Of a stretch of DNA of 32,863 bases, positions 1,013 through 31,784 are shown one piece after another. A program made the position numbers and the translations under genes. The stretch comes from an uncultured Bacilli bacterium (lineage in GTDB: Bacteria; Bacillota_I; Bacilli_A; RF39; UBA660). Under the pieces are notes generated by a model. That model saw nothing but the letters and a program-made list of their open reading frames with translations, ran no database searches and had not been told where the DNA came from. Each line of letters starts with the position of its first letter. Position 1 is the stretch's first letter. The stretch is from the NCBI GenBank assembly GCA_947598395.1, contig CANQFG010000007.1, forward strand, positions 1 to 32,863. Direction: 5' to 3'.

Positions 1013-1041
1013 TTGCGCCTACCTTTCGGCGCTTTTATAAT
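1013..1041 (+). promoter_or_regulatory. Candidate sigma-A promoter overlapping the terminator
   Basis: TTGCGC (1013-1018), 17-bp spacer, TATAAT (1036-1041). Predicted start falls on the G9 tract at 1048. Confidence 0.5.
1015..1036 (+). terminator. Intrinsic terminator after the FGE-like CDS
   Basis: GCGCC-TACCTTTC-GGCGC followed by TTTT, 10 nt after the stop codon. Confidence 0.6.
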
Positions 1042-1047
1042 GCAACT

Positions 1048-1056
1048 GGGGGGGGG
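1048..1056 (+). repeat. G9 homopolymer at predicted transcription start
   Basis: Direct reading: caact-GGGGGGGGG-tgcgat. Confidence 0.9.
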
Positions 1057-1093
1057 TGCGATACATTGAAGATAGAGAAAAAATAGGAGCAAA

Positions 1094-2227
1094 ATGAACA
1101 TGAAGAAAGTAATATTAGCTTTTATATTAGGACTATCTTTAAGTACGATAAGTGTTGTAGCTTTGAGTTTATGTAATGCTAAAGATATTGAATATAAATC
1201 AAGTGATACCAATTGGGATGTTGAAACCGTCGAAGATGCTTTGAATGAACTATATAGTGAAGACAATTGTAAATTATCCAATGAATTTTATGAATACTTA
1301 AAACAACCTTTCTTTTTTGCATATATAGGTAGTTCTCAACGCTTTTCAGTTCCTGTATCTGGCAACTACAAAATCGAATTATGGGGTGCCAGTGGTGGTG
1401 GAAGTAAAAATTTATATAGCTATACTAGTGGCATAATTTATTTAAATTCGCGTTTTACTTTGTATATATATGTAGGAGGTAAAGGTGCGGATACAAATGG
1501 TAGTGGAATCGGTGGCTATAATGGTGGAGGCAATACTAATCATTATAGTGGATATTGCGGACCTTCCGGAGGTGGAGCAACAGACGTGCGATTAGTTGGA
1601 GGGGAATGGGATAATTTTGATTCTTTAAAATCGCGAATTATGGTCGCTGCTGGTGGCGGCGGAGGGAATGATAATGATGAAACTTATGATTATTATGGTA
1701 ATAGTGGTAATGCCGGTGGTTTATATGGATATGATGGCACATTAAAAACTTATGAATATTATGCCGATGTTGGAAAAGGTGGAACTCAAACTAGTGGTGG
1801 GGCACAGGCATCTCAATATCCTGGATCAACTTCGGTATCAACCGCTGGCGGTTTTGGAATAGGCGGAATTGGGGGATCGAATAGAAGAGATACCCAAAAC
1901 GGTGGTGGCTGCGGAGGAGGAGGAGGCTACTATGGTGGATCTGGTGGTTCAGGTATTGTTATGGGTATCATGCCTAGTGGAGGTGGCTCATCATTTATCT
2001 CCGGTCATGATGGATGTGATGCGATATTAGAAGCTTCCACGGCAAGTAGTATCAAACATTCGGGTCAATCAGAACATTATTCCCATCTCGTTTTTAAAGA
2101 TACGGTTATGATCGATGCCGCAGGGTATCAATGGACGAGTGAAAGAGGCGAGATGGTTGGGGCTAAAATCCCGGAAATTGAAACCAATGGCAATGGATTA
2201 GCCAAGATAACTTATTTGGGTAGCTGA
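1094..2227 (+). CDS. Secreted glycine-rich protein (ALK/LTK glycine-rich-domain-like)
   Basis: AGGAG RBS, signal peptide MKKVILAFILGLSLSTISVVALS, then FFAYIGSSQRFSVPVSGNYKIELWGASGGG...YIYVGGKG...GGYNGGG...GGGATDVRL...SRIMVAAGGGGG, a pattern typical of the PF12810-like glycine-rich domain. Confidence 0.75.
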   Translation: MNMKKVILAFILGLSLSTISVVALSLCNAKDIEYKSSDTNWDVETVEDALNELYSEDNCKLSNEFYEYLKQPFFFAYIGSSQRFSVPVSGNYKIELWGASGGGSKNLYSYTSGIIYLNSRFTLYIYVGGKGADTNGSGIGGYNGGGNTNHYSGYCGPSGGGATDVRLVGGEWDNFDSLKSRIMVAAGGGGGNDNDETYDYYGNSGNAGGLYGYDGTLKTYEYYADVGKGGTQTSGGAQASQYPGSTSVSTAGGFGIGGIGGSNRRDTQNGGGCGGGGGYYGGSGGSGIVMGIMPSGGGSSFISGHDGCDAILEASTASSIKHSGQSEHYSHLVFKDTVMIDAAGYQWTSERGEMVGAKIPEIETNGNGLAKITYLGS

Positions 2228-13877: not shown

Positions 13878-15056
13878 ATGAATACTACTTCTAACAATAA
13901 AAATACAACCTTGCCTTTAAAAGAAAGACCAGTGCGCATTGCACAAATAATGGGCAAATGGTTAGGCGGTGGGGTTGAAGCAGTAGTTATGAATTATTAT
14001 CGCCATATGAATTATAATAAAATACAATTTGATTTTATTTGTGATAGCGATTCTACTAACATTCCTTATGAAGAAATAGAAAAATTAGGCGGTAAAGTTA
14101 TTTTAGTACCACCATATCAAAAAGTATTTGCTTATCATAAAAGATTAAAAAAAGTATTTAAAGAAAATAACTATAAAATAGTTCATTCACACATTAATAC
14201 TCTATCAGTCTTTCCATTGTATGCGGCAAAATGTGCAAAAGTTCCAATAAGAATTGCACATAGTCATTCTACAACTCATACAAAGGAATGGAAAAAAAAC
14301 TTAATGAAACAAATATTGAGACCTTTTTCTAAATTATTTGCTACTCATTATTTTGCTTGTAGTGAATATGCCGGGAATTGGCTATTCGGTAACAAAGCAG
14401 TTGTTAATGGAAATGTTTTTTTGCTAAATAATGCAATTGATGTGGAAAAATTCAAATACGATGAAGAGACAAGAAAAGAAGTAAGAAAAGAATTAAAAAT
14501 AAAAAAAAGTACAATTGTAATTGGCCATATAGGTAGATTTGTTGCACAAAAAAATCATGTATTTTTAATTGATATATTTAATGAATATCATAAATTAAAT
14601 AAAGATTCTATCCTATTATTAGCCGGTCAAGGCCCATTAGAAAAAGAAATAAAAGAAAAAGTTAAGGCATTGAAATTAGAAAATTCAGTTAAATTTTTAG
14701 GACTAAGAAGTGATGTAAATAAGCTATATCAAGCCTTTGATGTATTTTTATTGCCATCACTTTATGAAGGATTACCCGTAGTTGGAGTTGAAGCACAAGC
14801 ATCAGGTTTGTTGTGCGTTTTATCTGAATTAATGACAAACGAAACAAAATTATTAGAGTCAACCACTTTTATATCATTAGATAAGAGCGCAAAAGAATGG
14901 GCAAGTGTTATAAATAATAATTTTAAAAAAAATAAACGAATAGAGGCTTGCAAAGAACTTTCAAAAAAGGGGTATAGCATAGAAAAAGAAGCTAATAAAT
15001 TATTTAATAAATATGAAAAATTATTAGCAATAGGTGGTTATTATGTCAAAAGATGA
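13878..15056 (+). CDS. Glycosyltransferase family 4 (group 1)
   Basis: VRIAQIMGKWLGGGVEAVVMNYYRHM, IVHSHINT, IGHIGRFVAQKNHVFLIDIF, PSLYEGLPVVGVEAQASG; RBS AGAGGTG before ATG 13878. Confidence 0.9.
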   Translation: MNTTSNNKNTTLPLKERPVRIAQIMGKWLGGGVEAVVMNYYRHMNYNKIQFDFICDSDSTNIPYEEIEKLGGKVILVPPYQKVFAYHKRLKKVFKENNYKIVHSHINTLSVFPLYAAKCAKVPIRIAHSHSTTHTKEWKKNLMKQILRPFSKLFATHYFACSEYAGNWLFGNKAVVNGNVFLLNNAIDVEKFKYDEETRKEVRKELKIKKSTIVIGHIGRFVAQKNHVFLIDIFNEYHKLNKDSILLLAGQGPLEKEIKEKVKALKLENSVKFLGLRSDVNKLYQAFDVFLLPSLYEGLPVVGVEAQASGLLCVLSELMTNETKLLESTTFISLDKSAKEWASVINNNFKKNKRIEACKELSKKGYSIEKEANKLFNKYEKLLAIGGYYVKR

Positions 15057-16086
15057 AAAAATTAGTATAATTGTACCAATTTATAATGTTCAACATAATT
15101 TATTAAACAATTGTATAAATAGTTTGATAAATCAAACCTATAAAAATGTAGAAATTATTTTAGTCGATGATGGATCTACTGATGATTCTGGTAAAATATG
15201 TGATGATTTTGCTTTAAATGATAAGAGAATTAGGGTGATTCATCAAAAAAACAAAGGATTATCAGGAGCAAGAAATACTGGAGTTAATCATGTGACTACA
15301 AATTGGTATACATTTGTGGATGGTGATGATATTTTATTATCAAGTGGAATAGAACAATTAGCAAAATCAATTGAAAAAAATGTTGATGTTATTTGCACAA
15401 GAGTTATTCAAGCATCAAAAACGGAACTTATTGATAATTATCCGTATGAATTTAACAAAATTTATAGTTCAGAAGAAGATTTACATTATTTAAAATGTAT
15501 GTTATTAAATTTTTATGGAAATAATTGTAGTTCATGTGGTAAACTTTATAGTAAATTATTTACTGATAAATACCATTTATATCACAATGAAAATTTGAAG
15601 CAAGGCGCTGAAGATTTAGAATTCAATTTTAGAGTTTTTTCGAATGCGAAGAAAATAAAAATAATCGAATCTACGTTTTATCAATGCGTTTATAACTGCA
15701 AATCAATAACAAGATCTTTTAATAAAGAGAATGAATATTTAAAAATGGATTGCTTTAAAGCAATTAGGCAAAATATAAATTTAAAAGATAAAGATTTATG
15801 TGACTGGTTTTATAATAGAATGCAATATGCAATTGTTAGTTCTGCTATAAGTGGCTTTTTTAATCCATCAAATAAGCAATCGTATAATATTCAAAAAAAA
15901 GAATTTATAGAATTTTTAAAAATTGATATTATTCAAGATGCATTAAAATATCAAAATTCTATATCAATAGATAAAAAAAGAAAATTTATAATTCTATTAA
16001 TAAAAAACAAATTTTTTTTAGTAGTTAAGATAATCTCTATATTACGATTTTATCAAAAAAGGCAAATAAAAAAAGAGGCGATATAG
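15043..16086 (+). CDS. Glycosyltransferase family 2
   Basis: ISIIVPIYNV...NQTYKNVEIILVDDGSTDDSGKICDDF...GLSGARNTGV...FVDGDD. Confidence 0.92.
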   Translation: MSKDEKISIIVPIYNVQHNLLNNCINSLINQTYKNVEIILVDDGSTDDSGKICDDFALNDKRIRVIHQKNKGLSGARNTGVNHVTTNWYTFVDGDDILLSSGIEQLAKSIEKNVDVICTRVIQASKTELIDNYPYEFNKIYSSEEDLHYLKCMLLNFYGNNCSSCGKLYSKLFTDKYHLYHNENLKQGAEDLEFNFRVFSNAKKIKIIESTFYQCVYNCKSITRSFNKENEYLKMDCFKAIRQNINLKDKDLCDWFYNRMQYAIVSSAISGFFNPSNKQSYNIQKKEFIEFLKIDIIQDALKYQNSISIDKKRKFIILLIKNKFFLVVKIISILRFYQKRQIKKEAI

Positions 16087-17141
16087 TGGCAATATATATT
16101 ATATTTTATATATTAGTATTTTTATTATCATTTAGAATAAAAGAAAAAAAATGGAATATATTTGATATAATATTATTATCATTAATAATATTATTTTCAG
16201 GATTACGTTATGGTATTGGAACTGATTATAAAGGATATGAAGGTTATTATAACTCAATAACAAGTATTAATGATGTATTATTAAATCGAACGGGTACTGG
16301 ATACTATTTGATAGCCTACATTTTGCGTGTTAAATTACACTTGCCTTTTTCTTTTTATATATTTTTAATATCTTTTGTGACTAATTTATTAGTATATAAA
16401 TATTTTAAAAATAATTCAACAAGACCTGCACAATGTATTTTAATGTATATATCATTAGGCTTTTATGCTTTTACTTTTAATGCTTTTAGACAAAGTTTAA
16501 GCATGATAATAGTTTTATATGGTTTTTCATTTTTACAAAAAAATAAAATATTTCAATGTATACTTTTGTATGCATTGGGAATATCTTTTCATACCATATC
16601 GTTGATACCGGCTGCAATTTTTACAATATTATTTTGCCTTAAAAATTTTAAAATCAATTTTAAGGTCGTAATTTTATCAATTATAATTATTTTAATTTTT
16701 TATGATATGTTTTATTTTAAAATTTTAAATTTTAATAGTAATTATAAGTTATATACAATTAATTCAGAACAGTATATAGGTGGATTTGGTACATTTATCA
16801 ATGCCATAATGTATTTATTTTTATACTTAATTATTAATGTATTAAATTACAAAAAATTAGTAGCATATGATCCTAAAAATCATCTTTTTTCTAATATTAT
16901 GTCTATTGGGATTATTTTTAATACTATTTCTGTAAAGAATTGGCTATTTAGTAGAGTGGCTATGTCATTCTTGATTTTTACCCCAATTATTCTTTCGAGT
17001 TATTATGAATTTAAAGAATTTCGATATAAAAAAATGGAAAGCCTTTTGTGCTATATAATGCTATTTATATATTTTATAGTTAATGCTTTAAATTTTAATG
17101 ACGTTGTTCCGTATCAAAGTATACTATATTTAAATTATTAA
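16086..17141 (+). CDS. EpsG/Wzy-like O-antigen/EPS polymerase
   Basis: Polytopic; LRYGIGTDYKGYEGYY and FNAFRQSLSMIIVLYGFSFL are EpsG-like; GTG start overlaps previous stop (TAGTG). Confidence 0.8.
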   Translation: MAIYIIFYILVFLLSFRIKEKKWNIFDIILLSLIILFSGLRYGIGTDYKGYEGYYNSITSINDVLLNRTGTGYYLIAYILRVKLHLPFSFYIFLISFVTNLLVYKYFKNNSTRPAQCILMYISLGFYAFTFNAFRQSLSMIIVLYGFSFLQKNKIFQCILLYALGISFHTISLIPAAIFTILFCLKNFKINFKVVILSIIIILIFYDMFYFKILNFNSNYKLYTINSEQYIGGFGTFINAIMYLFLYLIINVLNYKKLVAYDPKNHLFSNIMSIGIIFNTISVKNWLFSRVAMSFLIFTPIILSSYYEFKEFRYKKMESLLCYIMLFIYFIVNALNFNDVVPYQSILYLNY

Positions 17142-17171
17142 AATATATATAATTTTATTATGGGAGGTAAC

Positions 17172-18143
17172 ATGAAAAATATTAAATTAAATAAAGATTT
17201 AATTAGCATTATAGTTCCAATTTATAATGTTGAAGATTATTTATCTCAATGTGTTGAAAGTATTTTACAACAAACATATACACCTTTAGAAATTATTTTA
17301 ATTGATGATGGTTCAATAGATTCATCAGGAAATATATGTGATGATTTATCAAAAAAAGATAAAAGAATCAAGGTGATTCATCAAAAAAATAAAGGATTAT
17401 CAGGAGCACGAAATACTGGTATAGAACATTCTAATGGTGAGTATATTTCTTTTATAGATAGCGACGACTTTGTTGAACCAGATTTTATTGAATTTTTATA
17501 TAATAATTTAATAAACAATGATGTAGAGATTTCAGCATGCGGAATGTGTGATTTTTATAATAATGATTATGTAATAAATAAACATTTTAAAAATATTAAA
17601 AAAAAATATAATATGGAACAATCTCACATTTATTTAAATGTACTTGGATATTTTGATGTGGCAGCATGTAATAAATTATATAAAAAAGATTTATTTTCTG
17701 ATTTAAGATTTCCATTGGGAAAAACTTGTGAAGATTGGCGAGTTATGTATAAACTAATTGATAAAATTAATTTTTTGTATTATGATTCAACGGTTAAATA
17801 TTATTATAGGCAAAGAAAAAATAGTATTACAAAATCAAATAAAATACGATATGATGGCATTGAAGCTGCAAATGATGCAATTGAATTTTATAAAATAAAA
17901 GGTTATAATTTTGCACTTCCTTATGCATATCAGTCATTACTTATAGCACAGTTAGGAGTATACAATAATTATTTAAGATTAGGAAAAGAATTAGATTGTC
18001 AAAAAATTTATAAAGCTTCTTTAGAAATTAATAAAAAATTAACTTATAGAAAATTAAAAATAAATAAAAAAATACAAATTCTTATTTATTTGTATTTAAA
18101 TTCAGTTTATAATTTTATATTCAAGTTAAAATTTAATAAGTAA
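17172..18143 (+). CDS. Glycosyltransferase family 2
   Basis: ISIIVPIYNVEDYLSQCVESILQQTYTPLEIILIDDGSIDSSG...KGLSGARNTGIEHSNGEYISFIDSDD. Confidence 0.92.
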   Translation: MKNIKLNKDLISIIVPIYNVEDYLSQCVESILQQTYTPLEIILIDDGSIDSSGNICDDLSKKDKRIKVIHQKNKGLSGARNTGIEHSNGEYISFIDSDDFVEPDFIEFLYNNLINNDVEISACGMCDFYNNDYVINKHFKNIKKKYNMEQSHIYLNVLGYFDVAACNKLYKKDLFSDLRFPLGKTCEDWRVMYKLIDKINFLYYDSTVKYYYRQRKNSITKSNKIRYDGIEAANDAIEFYKIKGYNFALPYAYQSLLIAQLGVYNNYLRLGKELDCQKIYKASLEINKKLTYRKLKINKKIQILIYLYLNSVYNFIFKLKFNK

Positions 18144-18249
18144 TACTGCTTACTAAATTTAAAAAAAATTATGAATAATTTGAAATATGAATATTAAAAA
18201 AATAAAATATTAATGATTTTAAATTTATTTGAGGAGATGAAAATGAAAT

Positions 18250-19413
18250 ATGAAACTATTTTTAATTAAAGTTCGTAATAAAATTAATAAAATTTTGGCG
18301 CCATTAGTTTTTTATGTATTTAGAGTTTTTCCCATAAACAATCATAAAGTGTTAGTTGAAAGTTTTGCTGGTAAAGGGTATGGTGGAAATTCTAAATATG
18401 TTGTTGAAGCATTACTTGAGCAAAATGTGCAAAATGATATTGTTTGGGTAACAAAAAATAAAGAAAATTTGCCAAATTCAGTAAGAAGCGTTAAGCCATA
18501 TTCATTGAAATGGATATATGAATTATCAACCGCAAGGGTGTGGATTAATAATATGAGATTCAGCCCGTATATTAGAAAGCGAAAAAATCAATATTATATT
18601 CAGTTATGGCATGGATGGATTGCCTTAAAGAAAATAGAATACGATGTATTTGATAAATTGGAAAAATATTATCAAAAAAGTATAAAAAATGATAATAGCA
18701 TGATTGATGTTATGATTTCTAATGGTAAAAAAACTACAGAATTTATAAGAAAATCTTTTAAGTATAAAGGTAAAATTTTAGAATTTGGTACGCCTAGAAA
18801 TGATGTGTTAGTGAAAAATAATCCTAATTTAAGAAAACAAGTATTAGAAAAATTAAATATTGATGAGGATTCTAATCTTTTATTATATGCTCCTACTTTT
18901 AGAAATACATATAGTAATAATAATCCATATGATGTAGACTTAATAAGAATAAAAAAAATATTAGAAAACAAATCAAAAGAAAAATGGGTAATATTAATGC
19001 GGCTGCATCCTAATGTAGCTGATAAAAAATTATTTACAAACTATTCCAAAGATATTATTAATGCTACCAATTTTCCTAATATTCAAGAATTATTATGCGT
19101 TAGTAATTTGGCTATTACTGACTATTCTAGTATTATGTTTGATTGTATGTTTTCGAATGTTCCAGTTATTTTGTATGCGAGTGATTTAAATAAATATTTA
19201 GACGAAAGAGGGTTTTATTATTCTTTGAATAAATTACCATTCCCGCTATTTGAAAATAATGATAAATTATGTGCTTATTTAGAAAATAATAATTGGAAAA
19301 AAATTGTAAATAATTATAAATTAATGAAAGATGATTATATTGAAGATGGCAATTCCAGTATTAGAGTAGCAGAATTAATAAATCAGGTTATTGAAAAATA
19401 TGAAAACAAATAA
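18250..19413 (+). CDS. CDP-glycerol glycerophosphotransferase family protein (TagB/TagF-like)
   Basis: YYIQLWHGW, LLYAPTFRNTY, RLHPNV, ITDYSSIMFDCMF, YLDERGFYY. Confidence 0.88.
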   Translation: MKLFLIKVRNKINKILAPLVFYVFRVFPINNHKVLVESFAGKGYGGNSKYVVEALLEQNVQNDIVWVTKNKENLPNSVRSVKPYSLKWIYELSTARVWINNMRFSPYIRKRKNQYYIQLWHGWIALKKIEYDVFDKLEKYYQKSIKNDNSMIDVMISNGKKTTEFIRKSFKYKGKILEFGTPRNDVLVKNNPNLRKQVLEKLNIDEDSNLLLYAPTFRNTYSNNNPYDVDLIRIKKILENKSKEKWVILMRLHPNVADKKLFTNYSKDIINATNFPNIQELLCVSNLAITDYSSIMFDCMFSNVPVILYASDLNKYLDERGFYYSLNKLPFPLFENNDKLCAYLENNNWKKIVNNYKLMKDDYIEDGNSSIRVAELINQVIEKYENK

Positions 19414-20773
19414 AATTAAAGAGCTATTAAAAAATACTATAATTATTTACATTGGAAGATTTTGTACGCAATTTATATCATTTTTCTTGGTTCCTATTTA
19501 TACAAATTTACTATCAACTGCTGATTATGGTTATGTTGATTTATTACAAACTTATATAACTTTGCTAGTACCTATTATCATTTTTAGATTTGATTCTGGA
19601 GTTTTTAGGTTTTTAATTGATGAAAGAAACAATGAAAAAAATAAAGATAAAATAATATCAAATACAATATTTGTTATTACTGTTCAAATCGTTATATTAT
19701 TAATTTTGTTTGCAATGTGTAATAGCTTTTTTGATATTAAATACTTCTTATTTGTAATTTTAAATATTGTTGCATTAGCTTTGTCAACGATCTGTTTACA
19801 AATTTCAAGAGGATTGGGTAAAAACGTTGATTATTCGATTTCTAGCATAATTTGTGGTTTGACTACTGTTATTGTAAATATTGTATTTATAACAATTTTG
19901 AAAAAGAATGCGTCTTATATATTATTGGCATCATGTATTGGAAATTTACTATGTTCTATATATTTATTTTTTCGATGCAAAATATATAAATATGTCCATA
20001 AAAATAAAATGGATATACAACAATTAAAACAAATGTTAAAATATTCAATTCCTATGATTCCAGATGGACTTTCTTGGTGGATAGTTAACGCTTCTGATAG
20101 AACGATTATATCAATTCTAATAGGTAATTCCTTTAATGGGATATTTGCTGTTTCTCATAAATTTGCTAATATTATTTCTAGTTTTTCACAGGTATTTAAT
20201 ATGACTTGGCAAGAAAGTGCTTCTAAATATATTAATGAAGACGATAAAGATGCTTTTTTTTCTAAAATTTTAAATGATGCTATAATAAGCTTTTCAATTT
20301 TGTGTTTACTTTTGATGTCTGGAATGGCACTAATTTATAAACTTTTTGTTGGACATGAATATTTTTCGTCATATTATTATATTCCAATACTGTTATTTGG
20401 AAATTTTTTGACTGTTATTTCTGGTATTTTTGGTGGCGTTTACATTGCTAAAAAGCAAACTAAATCAGTTGCAAAAACAACCATGATGGCAGCAATAGTT
20501 AACATTATTGTACATTTTATTTTGATAAGAAAAATTAAATTATGGGCTGCGTGTATATCGACATTAATTTCATATAGCGTATTAACTTTATATAGATATT
20601 ACGATGTAAAGAAGTATGTTAATTTTCATTTTAATATAAAAAATACAGCTCAATTGTTTATATTATATTGTGAAACAATTATTATATATTATTTCGATAA
20701 TGTATTTGTATCAATAATGAATATAATAGTTATTTTTATATTTGTTTTTGTTAAATGGAAATATAAAAAATAA
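19400..20773 (+). CDS. Polysaccharide flippase (Wzx/MATE-like)
   Basis: IIIYIGRFCTQFISFFLVPIYTNLLSTADYGYVDLLQTY, IPMIPDGLSWWIVNASDRTII; about 12 TM segments. ATG at 19400 (ORF track uses TTG at 19391). Confidence 0.88.
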   Translation: MKTNKIKELLKNTIIIYIGRFCTQFISFFLVPIYTNLLSTADYGYVDLLQTYITLLVPIIIFRFDSGVFRFLIDERNNEKNKDKIISNTIFVITVQIVILLILFAMCNSFFDIKYFLFVILNIVALALSTICLQISRGLGKNVDYSISSIICGLTTVIVNIVFITILKKNASYILLASCIGNLLCSIYLFFRCKIYKYVHKNKMDIQQLKQMLKYSIPMIPDGLSWWIVNASDRTIISILIGNSFNGIFAVSHKFANIISSFSQVFNMTWQESASKYINEDDKDAFFSKILNDAIISFSILCLLLMSGMALIYKLFVGHEYFSSYYYIPILLFGNFLTVISGIFGGVYIAKKQTKSVAKTTMMAAIVNIIVHFILIRKIKLWAACISTLISYSVLTLYRYYDVKKYVNFHFNIKNTAQLFILYCETIIIYYFDNVFVSIMNIIVIFIFVFVKWKYKK

Positions 20774-20852: not shown

Positions 20853-21910
20853 ATGGAAAAAAAGAAAAAATATAATTTAAGCTTGATCCGCTTTTTAGCA
20901 ATGAATATGATTATTTTTTGCCATATATTTGAATGGATAGGGTACGATTTAAGCAATAGTAAAACTATAGGAATAGTTGGAAATTTTTTAGCAGTTGGTG
21001 TTCAAATTTTTTTACTATTATCAGGATATTTATATGGTAAAAGGGATGATTTATTTGAAAAAGATGGAAAAATAAAATTTGTTTTAAATAATTTTAAAAA
21101 AATTTTATTTGATTATTACATTTATGCCTTTATTGTCATATTTCCGATTTATTGCTTAAGTTCTGAAATTTCTGGAATAACAATATTAAAAAATATTTTT
21201 AGACTTTTAACTTTTTCTGGTTTTGGTTTTGGTTTTCGCCACTTGTGGTTTATTCAATATATTTTATTTTGCTACGTATTAACACCATTTTTTTACGATT
21301 TGAAGGTTTATTTAAAAAATAACATAAAATCTAAATATATATTAGTGTGCATATGTGGCATAGCTTTGTTAGAAATTTTTAGTTGTGCGTATAATCCGTA
21401 TTTTAATACTAAATTTATTAATTGTTATATTATTGGCTTTTTTATATTTCCATATTTAAAAGATTTAATAAAAAATAATAATTTAAATTTGGTCATTTCA
21501 CAATTAGGAATGTTGGTTATATTTACGATTTTTTGGTATATTTTAAGATTTAGTATTATGCCTAATACACATAGTGTATACTTATCATATATTATTGGAT
21601 ATGGGATAAGCTATAGTTGTATATTCCAAGCTGTTTCCTTGTTTGGTTTATATTCTATTCTCGGGGGGGGGTGGTTAATAAAAAAATATTAAAAAAAATA
21701 TTGGATTTTTCTGACAAATACTCGTATGATATATACATTTGTCACATGTTATTTGTCAAGGGAATTTTAAGTTTGATAAATATTACGCCGTATTTTGCTA
21801 TTAATATTTTTTTAGCTCTTTTAGCAATTGTTATTTCAGGAATTATTTTAAAAACTATTAGTAGCTTTGTACAAAGCAAAATAAATAATTTAAGAATTGC
21901 GATTATTTAG
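20853..21910 (+). CDS. Acyltransferase family 3 membrane protein, frame-disrupted at a G9 tract (ORFs 20853..21692 and 21617..21910)
   Basis: N-terminal ORF: LSLIRFLAMNMIIFCHI...GVQIFLLLSGYLYGK...FGFRHLWFIQYILFCYVLTPFF. The other frame carries the missing C-terminus FSDKYSYDIYICHMLFVKG. Frames exchange at GGGGGGGGG 21663-21671; +1 G (or -2) restores one ORF. Confidence 0.85.
21663..21671 (+). repeat. G9 homopolymer inside acyltransferase gene
   Basis: attctc-GGGGGGGGG-tggtta, read directly. Confidence 0.92.
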
Positions 21911-30652: not shown

Positions 30653-31784
30653 ATGAGTTGTGAAAATAGTGAAAGAAAAATTAGAAATTCTAATATAGAA
30701 TTGTTACGGATAATATCAACATTTTTGATTATTGCTTTTCATATGAGACGATATAATTATATTTGGTCTAGTAAGCCTATTGGCTATATTTTTGGTACAA
30801 TTTTTTCAAGCTGGGGAGTATTAGGTGTTGATATTTTTTTAATTATTAGTGCATATTTTTTATCTGAATCAAAATTTCATATAAAAAAAGTAATTAATAT
30901 TGTTTTTCAAACTTTTAGTTGGATTATTTTATTTACTTGTGTATATGCCGTTTATAGTTATATAAAACTGGGGGGGGGTCAATTATAATATTTTTCAATT
31001 TTTGTTAGAAGGATTTTTCCAACCATTTTTTTGCAACTTTTATTGGTATATTACAGCTTATTTTTTTATGTTGTTATTATCTCCATTTTTAAATAAGTTA
31101 ATAAATAAACTTAATAAACGTAATTTTCAAAAAGTATTAGTAATTTGTTTATTTATTCCAATTTATGCTCAGTATAGTGAATATAATCCGGTTTGTGACG
31201 TTGTTACTTTTTCATATGTATATTTATTAATTAGTTATATAAAAAAATATGGTAGTAAATTAGTCGATAAATTATCGAATAAACCTTGGTATATTTTAAC
31301 TATAATTATAGTTGTTGCTTCAATATTTATATCCAATGCGCTTTTAGATAAAAGTGTACCTTTAAAGGTTATCAGTTATTTAATATCTCAAACTTTTGGA
31401 AAAATTATTCGTCACTCCAATATTATGCTTATAACTTCTATTTTGATTTTTTTCAATGTTCTTAATAAGAAGCCAAGTTATAATAAAAAAATAAATAAAA
31501 TTTCATCATATTGTTTGGGAATATATCTTTTTCACGAAAATGCTTTTTTTAATATGCCACTTGTTCCATGGGCGTTTGTTAAAGCCTTTAATTATTGGGG
31601 CTTTATGAGTATAGATGTGTTTTTCCCTATATCATTTCTTTCTATTGTTATTCTTGTTTTTATATTTGGTGCAATTATAGAAGCTATCAGGAATTATATT
31701 ATTCAAAAGCCTTTTATGAGCTGGGTTTCTAAAAAATATGAAAACAACATGAATTTAATAGATAATTGGTTTAATAGCTTTTAA
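30653..31784 (+). CDS. Acyltransferase family 3 membrane protein, frame-disrupted at a G9 tract (ORFs 30653..30988 and 31002..31784)
   Basis: NSNIELLRIISTFLIIAFHMRRYN...GVLGVDIFLIISAYFLSESKF, then frame change at GGGGGGGGG 30970-30978. The other frame continues FYWYITAYFFMLLLSPFLNKLINKL...YCLGIYLFHENAF. -1 G (or +2) restores one ORF. Confidence 0.87.
30970..30978 (+). repeat. G9 homopolymer inside acyltransferase gene
   Basis: aaaact-GGGGGGGGG-tcaatt, read directly. Confidence 0.92.

Follow-up and report, generated by a model that had tools for sequence, protein, structure and literature searches.

We find that the acyltransferase gene at 20853-21910 of the window, by which we mean the whole stretch of 32,863 nucleotides that was analysed, is parted into two reading frames by a tract of nine G. 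We consider it likely that this tract, at 21663, is a contingency tract by which acylation is flipped on and off, and that the tracts found in promoter-like elements of the same genome act likewise, but switching has not been demonstrated.

The G9 run occupies exactly positions 21663-21671 of the plus strand, where the preliminary description, made from the sequence alone, had placed it within the gene. The frame opened by the ATG at 20853 ends at the TAA at 21690-21692, 21 nt past the tract by count (22 nt had been given, so that this claim nearly held), and it yields the N-terminal part of the protein (20853-21692, plus strand, 279 aa), which keeps the R-X10-H motif in TM1 (RFLAMNMIIFCH). 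In the other frame, the sequence 3' of the tract (21672-21910, plus strand, 78 codons) is free of stops up to 21910 and encodes ILDFSDKYSYDIYICHMLF. The first piece matches PF01757 over profile positions 2-265 (E 7.9e-22, 78.2 bits against a curated cut-off of 31) and the second one over positions 249-324 (E 1.7e-4), which places the break within a single AT3 domain. The tract, the frames and the identity of the domain are shown, and two further claims held: that the gene encodes an acyltransferase, which is of the AT3 type, and that the other frame encodes its C-terminus. The gene being "switched off" at 21663 is the consensus of a single assembly only, in which neither a contig break nor an alternative length is seen at this tract. 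The comparison of tract length across strains that the preliminary description had proposed is impossible at this locus, since no close homologue of the gene was found at E<=1e-12 among 117 genomes of the family; no solved structure could be found for the protein by sequence either.

The window contains a second PF01757 gene (30653-31784), which is cut by its own G9 at 30970-30978 on the plus strand. Its N-terminal part (30653-30988, plus strand) keeps the R-X10-H motif, and the remainder (30979-31784, plus strand) lies in the other frame, where it spans 267 codons and matches PF01757 positions 116-321 (E 5e-11); the pieces score 39.6 and 42.7 bits, against the same cut-off of 31. At this tract, again, there is no contig break and no alternative length in the assembly. 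Over the whole genome, four PF01757 genes lie above the Pfam cut-off, and it is shown that all four carry an in-gene tract of eight or nine G or C. Three of the tracts are out of frame, namely the G9 at 21663, the G9 at 30970 and a coding-strand C8 in contig C24, while the fourth, a G9 in contig C1, is in frame and gives a 343 aa protein (109 bits against PF01757). By inspection, the R/K-X10-H motif described for AT3 proteins (PMC9558356) is kept in the first transmembrane helix in 4/4. None of the three split genes has a lesion besides the tract, and their downstream frames are open for 78, 267 and 147 codons and match the Pfam profile. The place of the tract within the protein varies among the four genes, so these tracts probably arose separately.

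The window acyltransferase lies behind a glycan cluster (13878-20773, plus strand), in which we find glycosyltransferases, an EpsG-type polymerase (16086-17141, plus strand), a CDP-glycerol glycerophosphotransferase (18250-19413, plus strand) and a flippase (19391-20773, plus strand). Given these neighbours, a surface polysaccharide is the likely acceptor. Acyl transfer to a surface glycan by this AT3 protein is thus likely, and it is inferred from the neighbouring genes only.

Tracts of this length are not expected in such a sequence. The window has three runs of at least nine G or C (1048-1056, 21663-21671 and 30970-30978, all of them G9 on the plus strand) against about 0.02 expected from its own GG and CC dinucleotide frequencies, so the earlier claim that a G9 is very unlikely by chance held. 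The whole genome (1.30 Mb) has 69 G/C tracts of at least 8, with lengths of 8-10 (108 G8 matches minus 39 G9 matches), but hardly any runs of 6-7. In the first 262 kb examined, run lengths fall geometrically to 6 (n=4), 7 is hardly present (n=1), and there follow 27 runs of 8, 37 of 9 and one of 10. With 69 tracts in the genome, the idea that the tract at 21663 is an isolated accident is rejected, and so is the idea that all tracts are in-gene switches, since the majority belong to one intergenic element. Of the tracts found, seven lie outside this promoter-like element, four of them in the AT3 genes. Tracts are also seen within a PDDEXK_2 nuclease-family gene (internal G8, in frame; G000:C22; L052:482-489), immediately 5' of a BRO-N gene's ATG, in ribosome-binding position (G8; G000:C8:5231-5238; L041:2532-2539), and close to the N-terminus in a short protein of the leader-B type (G9, in frame; G000:C2:21723-21731; L035:2524-2532). 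A read artefact of two-colour chemistry is rejected for the window genome, as the flanks are conserved. As a separate observation, the relative G003 has a contig (G003:C15) that ends in a G22; this run is probably a sequencing artefact and not biological. Finally, MutS (878 aa) and MutL (600 aa) are both present in the genome, so mismatch-repair loss is rejected as a cause, and any instability would have its source in the tracts.

Most of the tracts of the genome are part of one dispersed element, TGCAACT-G8/9-TGC(A/G)ATACA(A/T)T, that sits 37-43 nt 5' of the start codon in genes for two protein families, both of which have a conserved leader. The leader of family A reads ..LCNAKDIEYxASDTxWDVDTVEDALNDLY.. 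and that of family B MKKGIIIALILMSIGFAAVTTSLVINGTINYGYD.., and the C-terminal modules of these proteins are glycine-rich (ALK_LTK_GRD) or retroelement-target-like; a few copies of the element are followed by no more than a very short ORF. The first set counted 58 copies (24 with G8, 33 with G9 and one with G10), and with three found later added and two loci that had been seen twice taken off, this makes about 59 distinct loci. The copy in the window (1041-1067, plus strand) consists of TGCAACT, the G9 tract (1048-1056, plus strand) and TGCGATACATT, with a -10-like TACATT at 1062-1067, and 3' of it lies a family-A leader-bearing protein with an ALK/LTK glycine-rich domain (1094-2227, plus strand). 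The -10-like box and the tract are conserved in the window species; a consensus -35 was looked for in the element and not found, which makes the promoter reading weaker for this species. Its promoter role is inferred from this conservation and from relatives.

Length heterogeneity at promoter tracts is shown by the assembly itself. The latter is of short-read type (84 contigs), and we read all 168 contig ends; an exact overlap of 77 nt is shared by 26 pairs of ends, which gives k=77. The G8 of a promoter tract forms the exact end of a contig in six cases (69 unique nt + G8), and other contigs have their first base 69 nt ahead of a G9, or 67 nt in the case of a G10. Since the bases 5' of the branching tracts are unique among the 643 kb examined, such a graph branch means that reads of different tract length exist at the locus. 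Two loci are even present on two contigs each, one of which has G8 and the other G9 (C18/C32 and C52/C45), and in total eight promoter loci have length heterogeneity in the assembly graph. It is possible that the G8/G9 branches come partly from amplification slippage or from mixed strains. Contigs break at the tracts, which is in part why this genome assembles badly.

The same two kinds of tract are found in relatives. AT3 genes listed in 145 genomes of the family are nearly all unbroken, and of about 50 that were inspected, three have G tracts: in G163, a G9 out of frame cuts the gene just 5' of an SMDIYLSHM motif, which is also where the window gene is cut, and in G092 and G162 a G10 is in frame. 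These three relatives belong to other genera. As for promoters, the pattern TTGACA-N3..11-G8+ occurs in 65 of 291 family genomes, versus three for the reversed control. At 29 such loci, a TATAAT-like box usually lies directly 3' of the tract, and most spacers are 18-20 nt. A stricter pattern was found class-wide in 31 of 296 genomes from seven families (control 0), with spacers of 17-20 nt in 64 of 73 cases. There is only a weak sign that G length and non-G spacer compensate each other in these class-wide promoters (p 0.047), and we do not rely on it. In the sister species G006, family-A genes have an upstream poly-A (A9-A16) at the corresponding place (L121, L135, L141, L145), from which we infer that the homopolymer rather than the base seems to be conserved.

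The contingency-locus reading of the preliminary description is thus supported by the tracts in 4/4 AT3 genes, the AT3 tracts of other genera and the heterogeneity at eight promoter-like elements. The phenomenon is larger than had been described, as it includes a second split AT3 gene, a promoter-like G9 and 69 tracts genome-wide. The statement that such tracts are known mainly from Campylobacter, Helicobacter and Neisseria does not fit the lineage of the window, where they are common.

The mechanism that we propose would work as follows. Slipped-strand mispairing would alter the length of the G9 tract; one length class modulo 3 would give a complete AT3 acyltransferase, and with the other lengths, the assembled G9 included, translation would end before the last transmembrane part. 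Acylation of the glycan of the neighbouring cluster would then flip on and off at random across the population, and, with every AT3 gene of the genome so built, the glycan modifications would be combinatorial. In the promoters of about 59 genes for surface proteins, slippage would set the transcription strength of each gene, the tract length setting the spacing between the boxes as for porA/fetA. Length change at the in-gene tracts, reversible switching and any effect on transcription are inferred.

Other explanations can be considered, all of which we judge very unlikely. The tract length could have been mis-assembled by one base, the gene being constitutively intact. The assembly is indeed of a short-read type, errors of this kind occur at homopolymers, and one of the four AT3 genes is in frame. 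However, an error of length would not create G8-9 tracts, nor would it place them in 4/4 AT3 genes or make them recur in other genera, and a wrongly sized tract would still be of slippery length. The split acyltransferases could also be ordinary decaying pseudogenes, as 3/4 being out of frame in the consensus would suggest, but a second lesion is found in none of the three, their downstream frames are open and Pfam-matching, the active-site motif is intact and each break falls at a G/C tract.

A last possibility is that RNA polymerase or the ribosome slips on the G tract and so yields the full-length protein, without any need of DNA switching. Homopolymers can cause transcriptional slippage, and the narrow range of tract lengths (8-10) would suit a fixed device. 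Against this, one AT3 gene is in frame, as a mixed set of on and off genes predicts, and length heterogeneity is seen in the assembly at the promoter tracts, to which frame does not matter.

Taken singly, the components of this system are already known, namely phase-variable AT3 proteins, in-gene poly-G, homopolymer-spacer promoters and vlhA-like families. Phase-variable AT3 O-acetyltransferases are exemplified by oafA of H. influenzae (PMC9558356). As with oafA-type genes, an AT3 membrane acyltransferase would modify a surface glycan in an on/off manner, acylation and switching being inferred here; unlike them, the window genome has a G9/C8 homopolymer inside 4/4 AT3 genes and belongs to a low-GC lineage that has peptidoglycan genes. 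Contingency loci with an in-gene poly-G/C are described in Campylobacter, Helicobacter and Neisseria (PMC8355987, PMC2823697, PMC5320596), and share with our case a surface-glycan gene that contains a G/C homopolymer of about 8-10 and in which frame determines the full-length protein. The differences are the lineage, the location of most window-genome tracts in promoter-like elements, and the presence of both MutS and MutL. The porA and fetA promoters of Neisseria have a homopolymer between -10 and -35 (PMC5320596), to be compared with the arrangement in relatives of the window species (TTGACA, about 9 nt, G8-11, TATAAT, with 17-20 nt spacing). In contrast to those single genes, the promoters seen here form a family of which one genome carries dozens of copies, and the window species is without a consensus -35. 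Lastly, the vlhA family of Mycoplasma gallisepticum has variable GAA repeats upstream (PMC6258824); in both cases dozens of surface-protein paralogues each lie behind a conserved, repeat-bearing upstream element, but here it is a poly-G adjoining the -10, whereas the vlhA GAA repeats lie some 40 nt 5' of the start site, and there is no evidence for a single active copy in the window genome, for which expression data are lacking. The combination and its scale in uncultured gut or Bacilli-type lineages are undescribed in the literature searched, which is not proof of absence.

Work on poly-G contingency loci has concerned only a few Gram-negative pathogens. In the present case, poly-G tracts appear as a dominant design of an uncultured lineage and its class, with about 60 promoter-like elements and all the acyltransferases in one small genome. 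A bolder reading, which we would neither favor nor dismiss, is that of class-wide phase variation in uncultured low-GC bacteria, with three stochastic surface layers in one 1.3 Mb genome; this degree of confidence applies to the three layers jointly. Dozens of poly-G promoters per genome (poly-A in the sister species) would shuffle a modular surface-protein repertoire, part of this repertoire would also be diversified by a retroelement, and in-gene G tracts would independently flip every glycan acyltransferase. The poly-G design itself predicts a constantly reshuffled surface presented to host immunity and phages, and switching should be measurable without culture by mapping the reads of existing metagenomes in a length-aware manner.

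As regards the retroelement, a diversity-generating one lies at G000:C11:1-3000 on the minus strand, and it comprises a reverse transcriptase, an avd-like gene and a pair of template and variable repeats. These repeats are 94.3% identical over 158 nt, and all nine differences are at template adenines. The target that adjoins the retroelement is similar to the C-terminal modules of the proteins encoded behind the poly-G elements. Beside it we also find a stand-alone MutS_I domain protein of 131 aa (G000:C11:1353-1604, minus strand), and similar short MutS_I matches occur in several relatives.
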